A stretch of DNA of 64,000 nucleotides, taken from Tetramitus jugosus (lineage: Eukaryota; Heterolobosea; Eutetramitea; Acrasida; Vahlkampfiidae). The notes beneath the pieces are model-generated. The model worked only from the letters and a program-made list of their open reading frames with translations. It searched no databases and had not been told where the DNA came from. This document shows positions 2,095 to 25,251 of this stretch, piece after piece; position 1 is the first letter of the stretch, and each line of letters opens with the position of its first letter. Made by a program: the position numbers and the translations under genes. Location: the NCBI GenBank assembly GCA_937625935.1, contig OW569347.1, forward strand, positions 558,001 to 622,000, in the 5' to 3' direction.

Positions 2095-3762
2095 TTAATG
2101 CCAGATGTGCAACAATGACACAACGCTACCTACAAAGAGAGCAGTGTAGAGTGCTGCCTTGTAGTAGAAAGAGCTACTGTCATTGTGGGAATGAGAACCA
2201 GTGCTCTCTCTTGGAAGGATGCTGCTCTCTTGAGTTCCTGGCGTACTTTTAGACTTGCTTGGTGTTGGTTCTGGCTTCACTATGGATTCACTTGGAGATG
2301 GTTTTGGGACTGGAGAAGAACTGTAAGATGGAGAAGGAGGATAACTTGGCGATGGTAGAGGAGAAAGGGAGACCTCGGGCGTTACACCGTCCTCACCACT
2401 GCCTGGGAAGTTGTGACCAAATGGTCTTGGCGTAATTTGAGTCAAATCAAGACCAGTTTGCTTCACTCCAACCAAATCGTACTCGCTGTTCTTAAAGTTC
2501 CACTCTTTGTATGACGAGTCAGCCAATCCCTGAGCTATTGCTTCAAACACAACATCCTTCTTGTAAGCTCTGTCAGGAACAAAGACTCCAACCATTGTGC
2601 TGTCCTCTCCCTGTTTTTCAGAGTTAGGGGCGAATCTGACAAGACCCATTTGTTGTTGATTAGGAGGCTTCAAGGTTTCTTCGTTGAACTCAAAGAACAA
2701 ACCACCAATAGATCCCTTGGTCATATATTGAACCATTGGGCGGTATTGTTGATTGATCCAATCTGGTCGGCCTGCAGTCTGTGAGTCTTGGTCATGCATG
2801 CCGAACTCACCAACGAGAACGGGCAATCCAAATTCCTTACTCTTGGCTTCCCAACCAACAAAGTTATTGTTCGTGTCAGGTTCCCACAAGGTGTTTATAA
2901 AGACATCTCTGTACCCAGCATTTGTCATGAAAATGTCAACATCAATCTCGTCAGTCAACATGTTGTAACTCTGAGGCAAATCGACTTCACAAGTTGTGAC
3001 AGGAATGATTCTGTTCCATCTTTCAAGAGTGTACTCACGAACCTTGATAATCATCTTGTTCACGAGAGCTCTCAAATCTGGCTTGCTGTAGAGACCAAGC
3101 TCGTTACCAACAACCCACATGAGCAATGCGCTGTGGTTACCGATTTCATCGACTCGAGCCTCGACAAAACGATTCAAGTCATCTTCACTATAGAGAGTTA
3201 AAATGGATTCCTCAGAAACAATTGGCACAATGACTTTCAAGCCATATTCTGCTGCAGTGTCCATAAAGGTTCTGTGCTCTGGTGCATACTGTTTGTATGG
3301 AACGTACTTGGAATAGATGGTGGGATACTTCTCAATGAGTTCCTTTGTGAAGGGGGACATGTGATACACTCTCATAGCATTGGCTCCCATGTCTCTCATG
3401 AGAGGGAAGTCTCGTCTCCAAACTTCTCTCCACCATGGACCAGAAGGATGAGGAGATCCACCATTGTCACTATTCACTCCATCAAAGTAATCTTCAAAGA
3501 TGCAGGCATCGTAGTACACACCCTCATGATTAATCTTCTTAGAGCACAATCCAGCTTCATTGGCTCTTCCTAAGGGTTGAGGTGAATAGTTGACTCCCTT
3601 GATGAAGAATTGTCTGGAGCCTGTGAACAATTTCAAGTTTCTGACAAAGACATCATTCTCATCATATTTTTCTTTCATTTGTACTGCAGCAATGGTGGCC
3701 ACGAGTAACAGAAGTGCTAACGCTCCTGTTATCAGGTTATACTTGTTTCTCGGTATGTTCAT
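2095..3762 (-). CDS. Membrane-anchored TIM-barrel glycosidase/glucanosyltransferase-like protein
   Basis: This 555-residue protein resembles TIM-barrel glycoside hydrolases of the GH2/GH72 type. Seen in the sequence: an N-terminal hydrophobic segment (about residues 10-28, signal peptide or signal anchor), a FFIKGVNYSP opening strand, RVYH, the acid/base motif VVGNELG and the nucleophile motif VGEFGMHD. A Pro/Ser-rich linker of about 70 residues follows, then a hydrophobic C-terminus ending in HIWH, which looks like a GPI-attachment signal or tail anchor. By family knowledge such enzymes remodel beta-glucans or other surface or cyst-wall polysaccharides; the exact substrate is inference. The longest open frame extends upstream to 3852 but starts at TTG, so the ATG at 3762 is chosen. 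A 5'-UTR intron upstream cannot be excluded. Confidence 0.8.
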   Translation of the reverse strand: MNIPRNKYNLITGALALLLLVATIAAVQMKEKYDENDVFVRNLKLFTGSRQFFIKGVNYSPQPLGRANEAGLCSKKINHEGVYYDACIFEDYFDGVNSDNGGSPHPSGPWWREVWRRDFPLMRDMGANAMRVYHMSPFTKELIEKYPTIYSKYVPYKQYAPEHRTFMDTAAEYGLKVIVPIVSEESILTLYSEDDLNRFVEARVDEIGNHSALLMWVVGNELGLYSKPDLRALVNKMIIKVREYTLERWNRIIPVTTCEVDLPQSYNMLTDEIDVDIFMTNAGYRDVFINTLWEPDTNNNFVGWEAKSKEFGLPVLVGEFGMHDQDSQTAGRPDWINQQYRPMVQYMTKGSIGGLFFEFNEETLKPPNQQQMGLVRFAPNSEKQGEDSTMVGVFVPDRAYKKDVVFEAIAQGLADSSYKEWNFKNSEYDLVGVKQTGLDLTQITPRPFGHNFPGSGEDGVTPEVSLSPLPSPSYPPSPSYSSSPVPKPSPSESIVKPEPTPSKSKSTPGTQESSILPRESTGSHSHNDSSSFYYKAALYTALFVGSVVSLLHIWH

Positions 3763-4134
3763 CTGGACAACAGTATCTGCACTTTCGTTACGATATATAC
3801 AGGTGGGATAAGCAATTGAGTTAAGATTGTGGGTTTGAGTTGGTTGTGACAAAGTACCTGGATATCTGAAAATCTTTTTAAATCGGACAGGGCCTTTGGA
3901 CCAAACACAAATAGGCGCCAGTCAGAAACTTCTACCTGTAGGCGGGTACTCAAAAAAAGTTGTCGCACACTAGCAGGTCCTATTGGACAGAATAGGATGT
4001 CAACTTCCTCGTAATCGGATCCATCTAACTACTACCCGTTGAGGGTCATAGTTCAAATGATGACCTTGTCAGATGACATGAATCAAACATCCGGATAAGC
4101 TGGATATATTATTCCGCATTGTAAACATCAGATC
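3763..4134. promoter_or_regulatory. Divergent intergenic region (glycosidase / DPP III)
   Basis: A 372-bp gap between two genes transcribed away from each other, so it must carry both promoters. Apart from AT-rich stretches near the DPP III start (around 4105-4125) no motif, RNA gene or repeat is visible. Confidence 0.4.
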
Positions 4135-6372
4135 ATGATTCTATTTTTGAAAACGACAAAGAACAATCCCAACCCAATGTCATCAGCAAGATTGTTTCTC
4201 GGCGCACAAAAGCACAAGCTTTGCACAACAAGCCATCATCCATTTTTTGTAAGACGATCACTCTCGCAGTCGCTCATCCATCAAATTAGAAACACCATGT
4301 CATCATCCACCAATCAAACAGTTGCTCTCGTTCTCAAAGACGAAAAGCTAAAGCACTATGTCTGTCCTGAGAAAGTGCCAGTGTGTAAGCTTGAGGTCCA
4401 AACTGCATTCGATCTGCTCACCAAGGAAGAAAAATTGTATGCTCACTATTTTGCAAGAGCTTGTTGGGCAGGTGCACCCATTGTTCTGCAACAAGTGTCA
4501 AAGGAATCTCCCAAAATTTTCAATTTCTTGGTTGCCTTCTTTAGTGATGCTTCTGTTGTTAAGGCCTCTTCAGACAGCACAAACGAACAAGTTCTCCAAC
4601 AATTCAAGATTTATGCTTCTCTGTTCTTTGGTAACATGGGTAATTATACGTCTTTTGGTGACTCAAAGTTCATCCCAAGGTGTGAATCATCAGACTTGGA
4701 ATCAATTGTTCTCCAGACAAAGAATGACAAGTTGATTCAATTGTGGAATGGAGTCAAGCACGACTTGTATTCATTGACCAAGAGAGAATTGGACTTTGGA
4801 AATTCTACGTACTATAATGATGAGGTCACTCAGGCCGACGCAGAGAAGGTTCAAGAGTTTTTGAATGCAAACAACATCTCTGCTTACAATACTAGATTGT
4901 TCAAGACTGGTGACAATTCATTTGAGTTGCGATTGGCTTCTGGTGAGCAGTCGGAGCCTGTTGAACATCAATTCAAGGGAGTGACCATTAGAATTGTTCA
5001 AGGAGATTATGCAAAGTATATGCACCAGATTGTGTCCAACTTGAAGAAGGCTCTTCCTTACGCAAATGAAGTTCAAACAAAGATGATTGAAAAGTATATT
5101 GAACACTTTAGTGGAGGAAATGTCGAAGATCACAAGGAATCACAAAAGTGGTGGATCAAGGACAGGAGTCCAGCCGTTGAGACTAACATCGGTTTCATTG
5201 AGAGCTACAGAGATCCATTGAGAGTGAGAGGTGAGTTTGAGGGATTTGTAGCTGTGGTCAACAAGGAGATGAGCAAGAAGTTCAATGAGCTTGTCGATAG
5301 CGCACAGGAATTGCTCAAGGAGCTCCCTTGGAACAAGCGTTTTTCCGATGGTACTCAACCATTTGAGATTGAGAACTTTAGCAAGCCAGATTTTACTGCA
5401 TTGGAGATTTTAGCCTTCGCTTCCAGCGGTCTGCCAGCCGGTATCAACATTCCAAATTATGAAGACATTAGAGAGCACATTGGATTCAAGAATGTCAGCT
5501 TGAGCAACGTGTTGTCTGCTACTTCACCAATGGAAGAGATCACCATGCTCAAGAAGGAAGATATCCCATTGTTCAAGCAGATGAAGGGCAAGGCATTCGA
5601 AGTCCAAGTAGGAATTCACGAGTTATTGGGACATGGCAGTGGAAAGGCTGTTGTAGCAGATAAGAATGGAGAATTGCCATTGGATCTATCCAAGGTGATT
5701 AATCCATTGACCGGAAAGGCCGATATTTCCACTTATTACAAACATGGTGAAACATTCAATGCAATGTTTGGAGAGATTAGTAACTCGTATGAGGAATGCA
5801 GAGCAGAGTCCGTTGGCATTTATCTGTCTACCTATGATCATATATTGAAGATATTCGGACATGAGGGTAACGAGGCTCGCGAAATTGTGTACATTAACTG
5901 GTTATTGATGGTGAGAGCTGGCCTATTGGGACTTGAATTTTATAATCCTGATTCCAAGAAATGGTTGCAGGCTCACATGAGAGCTAGATATTGCATCTTG
6001 AATGTTTTGCTTGAAGCTGGAGAAGATTTTGTGCAAATTGTTGAAGAGGATGGCAACTGCTATGTAACATTGGATAAGAGCAAGATCCAAACTGTTGGTA
6101 TGAAAGCGATGGAAACTTTCTTGCTCAAGCTCGGTATTTACAAGAGTACATGTAATCTTGCCGATGGTGTTTCAATGTATCACAAGTACACTGAGGTTGA
6201 TGATCGATTCTTGCGTTTGAGAAAGATTGTTTTGGAAAAGAAACAGCCAAGAAGAGTATTTGTTCAACCACTCACAATTGAGGACGGAGAAAACGTCAAA
6301 TTGCAAGAGTTTGAACCTTCATATGAAGGAATGATTGAGTGCTTCTCAAAAATTACAACAACTCTTGATTAA
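4135..6372 (+). CDS. DPP3: Dipeptidyl peptidase III (zinc peptidase M49)
   Basis: This 745-residue single-exon gene has the M49 hallmarks: the zinc motif HELLGH at residues 495-500 and the second motif EECRAE at 553-558, which supplies the third zinc ligand. The family removes dipeptides from the N-terminus of short peptides, normally in the cytosol. Length fits the family (about 700-750). The first ATG (4135) adds a 54-residue basic, Ser-rich N-terminus that looks like a mitochondrial presequence; a second ATG at 4297 (Met55) opens the conserved enzyme directly. Both forms are possible. It converges on the Dicer gene, whose stop lies 46 bp from its own. Confidence 0.95.
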   Translation: MILFLKTTKNNPNPMSSARLFLGAQKHKLCTTSHHPFFVRRSLSQSLIHQIRNTMSSSTNQTVALVLKDEKLKHYVCPEKVPVCKLEVQTAFDLLTKEEKLYAHYFARACWAGAPIVLQQVSKESPKIFNFLVAFFSDASVVKASSDSTNEQVLQQFKIYASLFFGNMGNYTSFGDSKFIPRCESSDLESIVLQTKNDKLIQLWNGVKHDLYSLTKRELDFGNSTYYNDEVTQADAEKVQEFLNANNISAYNTRLFKTGDNSFELRLASGEQSEPVEHQFKGVTIRIVQGDYAKYMHQIVSNLKKALPYANEVQTKMIEKYIEHFSGGNVEDHKESQKWWIKDRSPAVETNIGFIESYRDPLRVRGEFEGFVAVVNKEMSKKFNELVDSAQELLKELPWNKRFSDGTQPFEIENFSKPDFTALEILAFASSGLPAGINIPNYEDIREHIGFKNVSLSNVLSATSPMEEITMLKKEDIPLFKQMKGKAFEVQVGIHELLGHGSGKAVVADKNGELPLDLSKVINPLTGKADISTYYKHGETFNAMFGEISNSYEECRAESVGIYLSTYDHILKIFGHEGNEAREIVYINWLLMVRAGLLGLEFYNPDSKKWLQAHMRARYCILNVLLEAGEDFVQIVEEDGNCYVTLDKSKIQTVGMKAMETFLLKLGIYKSTCNLADGVSMYHKYTEVDDRFLRLRKIVLEKKQPRRVFVQPLTIEDGENVKLQEFEPSYEGMIECFSKITTTLD

Positions 6373-23124: not shown

Positions 23125-23724
23125 TTAACATGTTTGTTTCAAGACTTGAATGACCCTGTTCATGAACTGAGTCTCTCCTTGCTTGCTTGTATCAATAATG
23201 TACAAATTGTGGCTCTTGGATCCCAATCTAGAGTAAACTTGAGCATCCAAAGTTGGTTTCAGCAATGCCCACCAGTTGAAGCATGTGACATACTCTTTGA
23301 CTTCTCCCTGTTCAAATGCAACGGGGAACTTTGGAATTTCTACACTGTCTGGTACATAGTCCTCATCATCTTCATCTGCACTAGTCTTGCATGGTAAGAT
23401 GAATGCAATGATACCATCTTGCTGATTCAACAAGAGTTCCAATTTCTCTGCACTGTCACTGTTCACAATACCCAACAAGTAAGCTCTCTTCTTGACTGTC
23501 TTGTCTTCATTGAGAAGGAGTGGTGAGCTACTGGTAGTCAACATACCGAGTTGATTGACCTCGATGAGTTGAGAGATGAGAGAACTCGTCTCGGATTCCA
23601 ACTTGAGTGTGAATGGGGATGTGGTGGTAGAAGGATTGTTCAAAAATTGCTCATTCAGTTGGATGAGTTGCTTGAATTCTTGTACCTGTTGATACTGTTG
23701 ACGATCTGTGTTGTTGAGAGCCAT
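23125..23724 (-). CDS. Unknown conserved-looking protein (199 aa)
   Basis: The ATG at 23724 lies in AAAATGGC context and opens a 199-residue protein; the longer upstream frame has a basic non-conserved leader and is disfavoured. The N-terminal third is a Gln-rich helix, then GIVNSDSAEKLELLLNQQDG, an acidic DEDDEDYVPD stretch and a C-terminal alpha/beta segment (NLYIIDTSKQGE). It has no signal peptide or membrane segment. I do not recognise the family. Confidence 0.7.
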   Translation of the reverse strand: MALNNTDRQQYQQVQEFKQLIQLNEQFLNNPSTTTSPFTLKLESETSSLISQLIEVNQLGMLTTSSSPLLLNEDKTVKKRAYLLGIVNSDSAEKLELLLNQQDGIIAFILPCKTSADEDDEDYVPDSVEIPKFPVAFEQGEVKEYVTCFNWWALLKPTLDAQVYSRLGSKSHNLYIIDTSKQGETQFMNRVIQVLKQTC

Positions 23725-23898
23725 TTTGTGTTCGTTTGTTGCTGTTGTTTTGCTGTGTGTTTGTTTTCGTGGTTTCGGGAAGATCTTGTCACTTGGTTTT
23801 TTGATCCGTTCGCGGAAAATTGTCAACTCTCGAAGGAACAACATTGGGGATAGCATCATATGTGAAGAGTTCTTCTTTTATTTGTCAATCAAAGAAGT

Positions 23899-25251
23899 TT
23901 AAGCCTTGACAGTACCAGCGTATGGTTGACTTTCAATACCACACTCGTTGACACCTCTTCTGATCCAGAAGAAACCGTTCAAGCCCCACTCTGGTCCCCA
24001 AGAGTTAGCAATAATCCAGTATGGCATGTTTTGGGACTCAGAGACACCCCAGCCAATCAACTTGACAGCGTGACCACCGAGCATTGAGCCAGAGACATGG
24101 TGATAGACACCACCGCTGTAGGACAAGAAGTCTTGGTAGACGGTGAAGGCAACTTGAATTGGACCATGGGCCATCAAGTCTGCTTGAATTTCATGGACAC
24201 CACCGGTAATGTGATAGGTTCTGTCAGCGTGGTAGAACTTTGGAGTGCTGCCATCGTTACACTTGGTGCTGCACTTTTCGACTTGACCTGCGCCAGCAGT
24301 GTATGGCATGCAGGCATCAGTTGGCAAACCGTCCTTCTTCATGAAGGCCCATGCGTTTTGCAAATATCCACCATTGCATCCATAGTCGTGCTTGTCGCAA
24401 GAGACCAAGAATTGAGGGGAAAGAACTTCATTGACGGATCCGTTGGTAGCAATGCAGAATCTGTCGGACAAGACTTCAGATCCGCTGAATGCCCAGCAGG
24501 AACCACACTTTTGTTGGTTTCTGATTGGATGAATGCACTTGCCGCCCAATGGTTGAGTTCTCCAGTCAAAGTTGGTTGGATAGTCCTTGGTCTTTTGTGC
24601 AAACATGGCTTCTCTTTCCTTGTTGATGAATTGAGGCACAATCTTGGCACCCATGTACTTGCGTTGAACTTGGCTCAAAGATTGACCTTCGAACACCTTG
24701 TTGACACCAGCCTTCCATGCAACACCTTGCTTGCTGTTAATCTCAGCAATCAACTTGTGGTCAATGGCTGGTTGTTCCTCAGAAATGGCAGATGCACCGT
24801 CCATCATAAAGTTGAATTGAATACAGGTGTAAGTGTTGTTCTTTCCGTCGGCCAATCTAGCAGTACCAGTGTATGGACCACCTGGTGGAGCAAAAGCAGG
24901 AACATCTTGCTTGATGGTTTGATCAAACTTGCCAACAGCGATTGGGCATGTCAAGAAACCAGCATCACAAACGTTTTGTGTTCCCTGATAGAGTTGAATT
25001 CCACTGTAAGCAACATCAACAGAAACAATAGCATCGCTACCAATAGCTTGCTTGAGGTCACCAGTGACGTGGAGTTGGAATGGAGCACCGCTCTTTGGAG
25101 TGGATGGGGAGAATTCGACAGTAGCAACATTGATCAACCAAGATGGATCTTGCTTGTCACCGCTACAAAAGGTCCAGATCTTGCCCTGGGCTGAGACGTT
25201 GGCAGCCATCAGGAAGCAAGCGAGAGCTGCAATTAAAATTACAAATTTCAT
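23899..25251 (-). CDS. Secreted ML-domain / cathepsin B-like protease fusion
   Basis: 450 residues from ATG 25251 (the frame extends six codons to a TTG). Order: signal peptide (1-21); an ML (MD-2-related lipid-recognition) domain, about 25-150, with FCSGD, VCDAGFLTCPI, PPGGPY and a late Cys, matching the NPC2/PITP-like pattern; a cathepsin B-type propeptide (AGVNKVFEG, about 178-200); and a papain-family protease with the oxyanion Gln246, Cys252 in KCGSCWAF, GGHAVKLIGWG and NSWGPEWG. The His-His occluding loop of true cathepsin B is absent. By family, it is a lysosomal or secreted cysteine protease; the ML part suggests lipid or membrane binding, or delivery with lipid cargo. The whole gene is one uninterrupted frame. 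Confidence 0.93.
   Translation of the reverse strand: MKFVILIAALACFLMAANVSAQGKIWTFCSGDKQDPSWLINVATVEFSPSTPKSGAPFQLHVTGDLKQAIGSDAIVSVDVAYSGIQLYQGTQNVCDAGFLTCPIAVGKFDQTIKQDVPAFAPPGGPYTGTARLADGKNNTYTCIQFNFMMDGASAISEEQPAIDHKLIAEINSKQGVAWKAGVNKVFEGQSLSQVQRKYMGAKIVPQFINKEREAMFAQKTKDYPTNFDWRTQPLGGKCIHPIRNQQKCGSCWAFSGSEVLSDRFCIATNGSVNEVLSPQFLVSCDKHDYGCNGGYLQNAWAFMKKDGLPTDACMPYTAGAGQVEKCSTKCNDGSTPKFYHADRTYHITGGVHEIQADLMAHGPIQVAFTVYQDFLSYSGGVYHHVSGSMLGGHAVKLIGWGVSESQNMPYWIIANSWGPEWGLNGFFWIRRGVNECGIESQPYAGTVKA

Follow-up and report, generated by a model that had tools for sequence, protein, structure and literature searches.

The fusion gene and its domains

We analysed a window of 64,000 nucleotides from Tetramitus jugosus (assembly GCA_937625935.1, contig OW569347.1, positions 558,001 to 622,000), in which an earlier note, made from the letters alone, had read an ML lipid-binding domain and a cathepsin B-like protease in one frame. 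This observation was confirmed. The fusion gene is a single ATG-to-stop frame of 450 residues, and its coordinates, strand and frame had been given correctly. Its features are as follows, by position in the window.

23899..25251, minus strand: whole open reading frame (ORF) of the ML-propeptide-C1 fusion, 450 residues (reading frame, Pfam, match to its own genome without stops)
25189..25251, minus strand: putative signal peptide, residues 1-21 (...VSA/Q; sequence read by eye)
24808..25176, minus strand: ML domain, residues 26-148, with Cys 29, 95, 102 and 143 (Pfam PF02221)
24586..24774, minus strand: cathepsin B-type propeptide, about residues 160-222 (procathepsin B alignment and a fusion-derived profile; borders by eye)
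23914..24579, minus strand: Peptidase C1 catalytic domain, residues 225-446, without occluding loop (Pfam, procathepsin B alignment, model)
24496..24498, minus strand: codon of catalytic Cys252 (residue check)
24070..24072, minus strand: codon of catalytic His394 (residue check)
24004..24006, minus strand: codon of catalytic Asn416 (residue check)
23877..23882, minus strand: AATAAA poly(A)-type signal, 17 nucleotides past the stop (sequence motif)

The Pfam search that had been proposed as a check matched both PF02221 (residues 26-148, E 4.9e-14, 53.3 bits against a cut-off of 22.7) and PF00112 (residues 225-446, E 9.3e-65, 219.2 bits), and the domain order read earlier, with ML ahead of the propeptide, was borne out. 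The Propeptide_C1 profile scored 24.2 bits over residues 166-203, under its cut-off of 32.7, so the propeptide assignment rests on the alignment of residues 166-447 to 13-313 of human procathepsin B (1pbh) and on the structural model, which matches procathepsin B. Residues 151-446 align with Trypanosoma brucei cathepsin B (4hwy). The catalytic residues Q246, C252, H394 and N416 are all in place, as had been reported, and with these four and a papain fold in the model the enzyme part is assigned to family C1A. In the alignment to human procathepsin B, the occluding loop with its His-His has no counterpart, in line with the earlier reading; the loop string of P0001, a database protein 99% identical to the fusion protein and probably from the same or a sibling species, agrees. 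Because the loop is absent, we file the enzyme as cathepsin B-like and not as cathepsin B. Endopeptidase activity, release of the ML domain and membrane targeting are predictions from the sequence.

The ML domain of the fusion protein has four cysteines; mammalian NPC2 has six. Across the 20 rows of alignment A1, C102 and C143 are invariant, while C29 and C95 are kept in at least 90%. Structure prediction, also suggested earlier, gave an ML-type beta-sandwich, and in a structure comparison of the model its nearest fold was NPC2, not MD-2; the ML part is thus predicted to have an NPC2-like fold. The predicted signal peptide region has a predicted local distance difference test (pLDDT) value below 50, and two N-glycosylation sequons, N138 and N270, both lie downstream of it. 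The neighbouring 244-residue ORF (window 23125-23859, minus strand) matches DUF6919 at 37.5 bits against a cut-off of 27.

Occurrence and history of the fusion

Relatives were collected as 155 distinct proteins from three protein searches, the two large ones giving the best 120 of 5918 and the best 120 of 5257 matches; they were chosen by likeness to the query, and other domain orders may be under-represented. Acrasis, Naegleria and Willaertia proteins are among the matches listed. Domains were mapped with profiles built from alignment A1. ML and C1 occur together in 29 of the 155 (28 without P0001): 27 have the order ML-propeptide-C1, one has ML-ML-propeptide-C1 (P0131) and one has propeptide-ML-C1 (P0056). 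The rest comprise one ML alone (P0121) and 125 proteins without ML; in none of the 155 mapped is ML C-terminal to the enzyme. ML is therefore ahead of the propeptide in 28 of the 29 listed fusions, the exception being P0056, where it sits at the propeptide/enzyme junction. A search for ML alone gave 7 proteins out of 112 candidates. The complete arrangement is conserved in P0002-P0004, P0007 and P0012, which are 55-71% identical, and this conservation, together with the recurrence in 29 of the 155, argues that the fusion is more than chance. Named organisms that carry it are Acrasis kona (P0014) and what we take, from its ANDGO label, to be Andalucia godoyi (P0015). Trinity transcript names are attached to P0021, P0088 and P0131, and P0021 and P0131, from other organisms, are named as complete ORFs of such transcripts and hold both domains. 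The fusion of ML to a cathepsin B-like enzyme is real, conserved and recurrent, and is not unique to the window. Six relatives (P0005, P0006, P0008, P0009, P0010 and P0011) are tandem cathepsins with two propeptide-C1 units per chain.

All 29 listed fusions retain Cys, His and Asn. Loss of the occluding loop was considered as a hallmark of the fusion and rejected: 26 of the 29 lack it, three keep it including His-His (P0131, P0132 and P0154), and it is also missing from P0030, a plain cathepsin of Naegleria fowleri.

The statement that ML domains normally stand alone proved too strong, as ML with C1A has been published for oomycetes and other stramenopiles (PMC10084794, PMC12799129). Kiselev et al. 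(PMC10084794) report C1A:ML in several stramenopiles, including secreted proteases of this type in Aphanomyces, and in Phytophthora Pain2, the subject of a 2026 PNAS paper (PMC12799129), ML is at the C-terminus. What is new here is the domain order and the protease subfamily; the ML/C1A pairing was already known. We found no published description of ML ahead of a cathepsin B-type propeptide in the literature searched, which excluded most subscription journals, but 27 of the 155 listed relatives, and one more with ML doubled, have the order, and such proteins are already deposited with the label cathepsin B. The earlier interpretation as a whole was partly supported: the order, frame, catalytic residues and absent loop held, and the standalone-ML claim went too far.

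The history of the fusion was examined with two catalytic-domain trees, a quick one of 191 rows, which warns of long branches meeting, and a careful one of 68 rows hand-picked from those 191. The ML label, taken from the domain map, changes 16 times on the former and 13 times on the latter, and starred branches force at least seven changes in each. A single origin was rejected by the approximately unbiased (AU) test on the 68-row tree, carried out when the quick tree was already known, in which all 29 ML rows (the 28 listed fusions without P0001 and the window's own) were held together (p 5.7e-101). A single clade of the 26 loop-less fusions was rejected as well (p 4.2e-47). Repeated gain, repeated loss or exchange of ML would fit these tests alike. 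The ML domain of the Acrasis fusion P0014 falls in one clade with that of the window (99/99), while its enzyme groups with proteins without ML, among them the named Acrasis cathepsins P0038 and P0100 (98/83, 99/95). P0056 and P0142, 77% identical over 398 aligned residues, differ by the ML at the propeptide/enzyme junction. These two cases suggest that the ML module has been moved or lost readily. Both P0056 and P0142 also end in a Cys-rich tail that Pfam does not recognise.

A second ML gene and NPC1 in the same genome

A six-frame scan of the genome found two ML domains, one in the fusion gene and one in a further gene on the same contig. NPC1 domains, from the partner of NPC2, are encoded in two genes.

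L018:1171-1974, minus strand: second ML gene, 267 residues, ML followed by a 111-residue basic tail with 32 Lys/Arg (six-frame ML scan)
L064:1261-2328 (C37), plus strand: NPC1_N gene, 355-residue ORF with one membrane span by eye (PF16414, E 1e-24)
L069, about 2475-5550 (C45), plus strand: NPC1 core gene with middle lumenal and sterol-sensing domains (domain match; span and intron by eye)

The protein of the second ML gene is nearly identical to database protein P0121 (263 of 267 residues), and the ML tree places its ML domain, with starred support, among the ML domains of fusions. This tree was rooted at the midpoint; P0088 and P0125, the shortest ML fragments, were left out, and P0017 and P0126 were flagged as long rows. 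The simplest reading of the sequences is that the second gene is a duplicate that lost its protease, though no trace of a protease was seen in its tail. The tail was tried as a decayed propeptide, and 586 of 1000 shuffles scored as high; as a decayed propeptide plus enzyme, 108 of 500 did, and both candidates were rejected. No C1 remnant was seen in a 9.5 kb stretch around the gene (tblastn best E 0.24). A genome scan for C1 gave 32 matches, not all of them separate genes since some are exons of a single one, and the ML scan found ML at only one of the 32. Eight sister cathepsins (L045, L046, L047, L050, L054, L051, L052 and L056) were seen by eye to carry Cys-rich repeats between propeptide and enzyme, and the first five of these also have Pro-rich linkers.

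Only one NPC1_N match in the genome reaches the cut-off. The NPC1 core is an 862-residue ORF, on a different contig from the NPC1_N gene, that matches human NPC1 from residue 386 onward. An upstream exon, read by eye, provides a membrane span ahead of the middle lumenal domain and begins at its own ATG, shortly past an in-frame stop. NPC1 thus looks to be divided over two genes, with the break between membrane spans one and two. A literature search on NPC1 in Naegleria found nothing in point among the papers listed.

Possible roles of the ML domain and known systems

We tentatively favour, with slightly less than even confidence, the reading that the fusion is a dual precursor of the digestive vacuole, from which acid autoactivation would free ML as an NPC2-like lipid carrier. 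The signal peptide would bring the precursor into the secretory pathway and on to the acid digestive vacuole, where autoactivation may lead to a self-cut at the propeptide/enzyme junction. Such a cut would separate the ML part from the enzyme, and the freed ML could carry sterols or phospholipids in the manner of NPC2 and perhaps hand them to the N-terminal domain of NPC1, as yeast NPC2 does. We favour this because ML precedes the propeptide in all listed fusions but P0056, because the ML domain of the one further ML gene found is placed among those of fusions, and because NPC1 is present, albeit as two genes. Prosaposin, which yields several lipid-handling proteins, offers a likeness.

Several points weigh against the dual precursor. 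Secretory entry, cleavage and its site, lipid binding and the hand-over to NPC1 are steps that we infer. The full-length model is weaker (predicted template modelling score 0.67) and does not fix the placement of ML on the zymogen. P0056 does not count for release, as its ML might stay on the enzyme after the cut, and the same cut would not free the ML that follows the enzyme in stramenopile proteases. The second ML gene could fill the role of NPC2 alone, and the six-frame scan may miss an NPC2 split by introns, one intron having been read by eye in another gene here. The ML tree, midpoint-rooted and containing no free NPC2 from other organisms, cannot distinguish loss from gain of the protease.

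The main rival holds that ML stays on, as a targeting or substrate-binding module that would hold the zymogen or enzyme to membranes or to lipid-coated prey such as bacteria; we regard this as possible but doubtful. A tether or binding role has been proposed for the ML of stramenopile proteases (PMC10084794, PMC12799129), and since ML follows the enzyme there, a binding role for ML on C1 proteases generally gains favour; sister cathepsins also bear saposin modules on either side of the enzyme. Against a tether, ML is never C-terminal to the enzyme among the listed proteins, 28 of the 29 fusions would lose it at the usual activation cut, and the nearest fold is NPC2 and not MD-2. It is improbable that ML is an accessory pro-region that has no part in lipid handling and instead helps the zymogen to fold, to be trafficked or to stay latent. 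ML does adjoin the propeptide in all 29 fusions, and several sister cathepsins carry unrelated Cys-rich inserts, by eye, between propeptide and enzyme, but 125 of the 155 relatives manage without ML, the ML cysteines are conserved in A1, and ML also occurs separate from a protease. Two genes misread as one, through a frame artefact, a missed intron or separate transcripts, would be a very improbable explanation. Although the fusion gene is known here from genomic sequence alone, its frame is single and open, and both domains stand together in the 29 listed entries, transcript-derived ORFs among them. Two transcripts are disfavoured because neither AATAAA nor ATTAAA was found inside the fusion frame and an AATAAA lies 17 nucleotides past the stop.

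If the dual precursor holds, one protein would couple protein digestion to lipid salvage in phagotrophic protists and would make it possible to trace genetically where NPC2-type carriers act, since carrier and protease would share both place and time of appearance. A wider version, which we consider unlikely, is that this protist has reassembled its Niemann-Pick C lipid-export system from separate parts: a cathepsin B-like zymogen would contain the NPC2 carrier and free it by the acid cleavage that also arms the protease, so that protein breakdown and lipid salvage set in jointly and in constant proportion, and NPC1 would be split into a detached, membrane-anchored sterol-receiving domain and a separate transport core.

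Each known system resembles the window's protein in part. The stramenopile C1A:ML proteases (Aphanomyces PLCP-ML and Phytophthora Pain2) likewise combine a secreted papain-fold cysteine protease and ML in one protein, but their protease is papain-like with ML at its C-terminus, whereas here ML is N-terminal to a cathepsin B-like propeptide. Yeast NPC2 (6r4m, 6r4n) is a free soluble protein that passes sterol or lipid to the N-terminal domain of NPC1 (PMC11512107), while the window's ML is joined to a protease zymogen and its release is only predicted; the partner NPC1 is also in this genome, where one gene encodes NPC1_N and a second the middle lumenal and sterol-sensing domains. Over propeptide and enzyme, the zymogen that matches best in both sequence and fold is procathepsin B (human 1pbh, T. 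brucei 4hwy and 7e3e), which differs in that the window's protein lacks the occluding loop and has an extra N-terminal ML. Saposin B-cathepsin B fusions (P0073, P0079, P0091, P0095, P0101, P0107, P0133 and P0136), of which no published description was found in the literature searched, carry another lipid-interacting module on related proteases, with a saposin fold and not ML. Depending on the protein, their saposin B precedes the propeptide, lies between it and the enzyme, or follows the enzyme (Pfam, places by eye; P0079 scanned). The scattered occurrence of ML and saposin modules beside cathepsin B-like enzymes would be in keeping with selection having favoured lipid modules on this family more than once.
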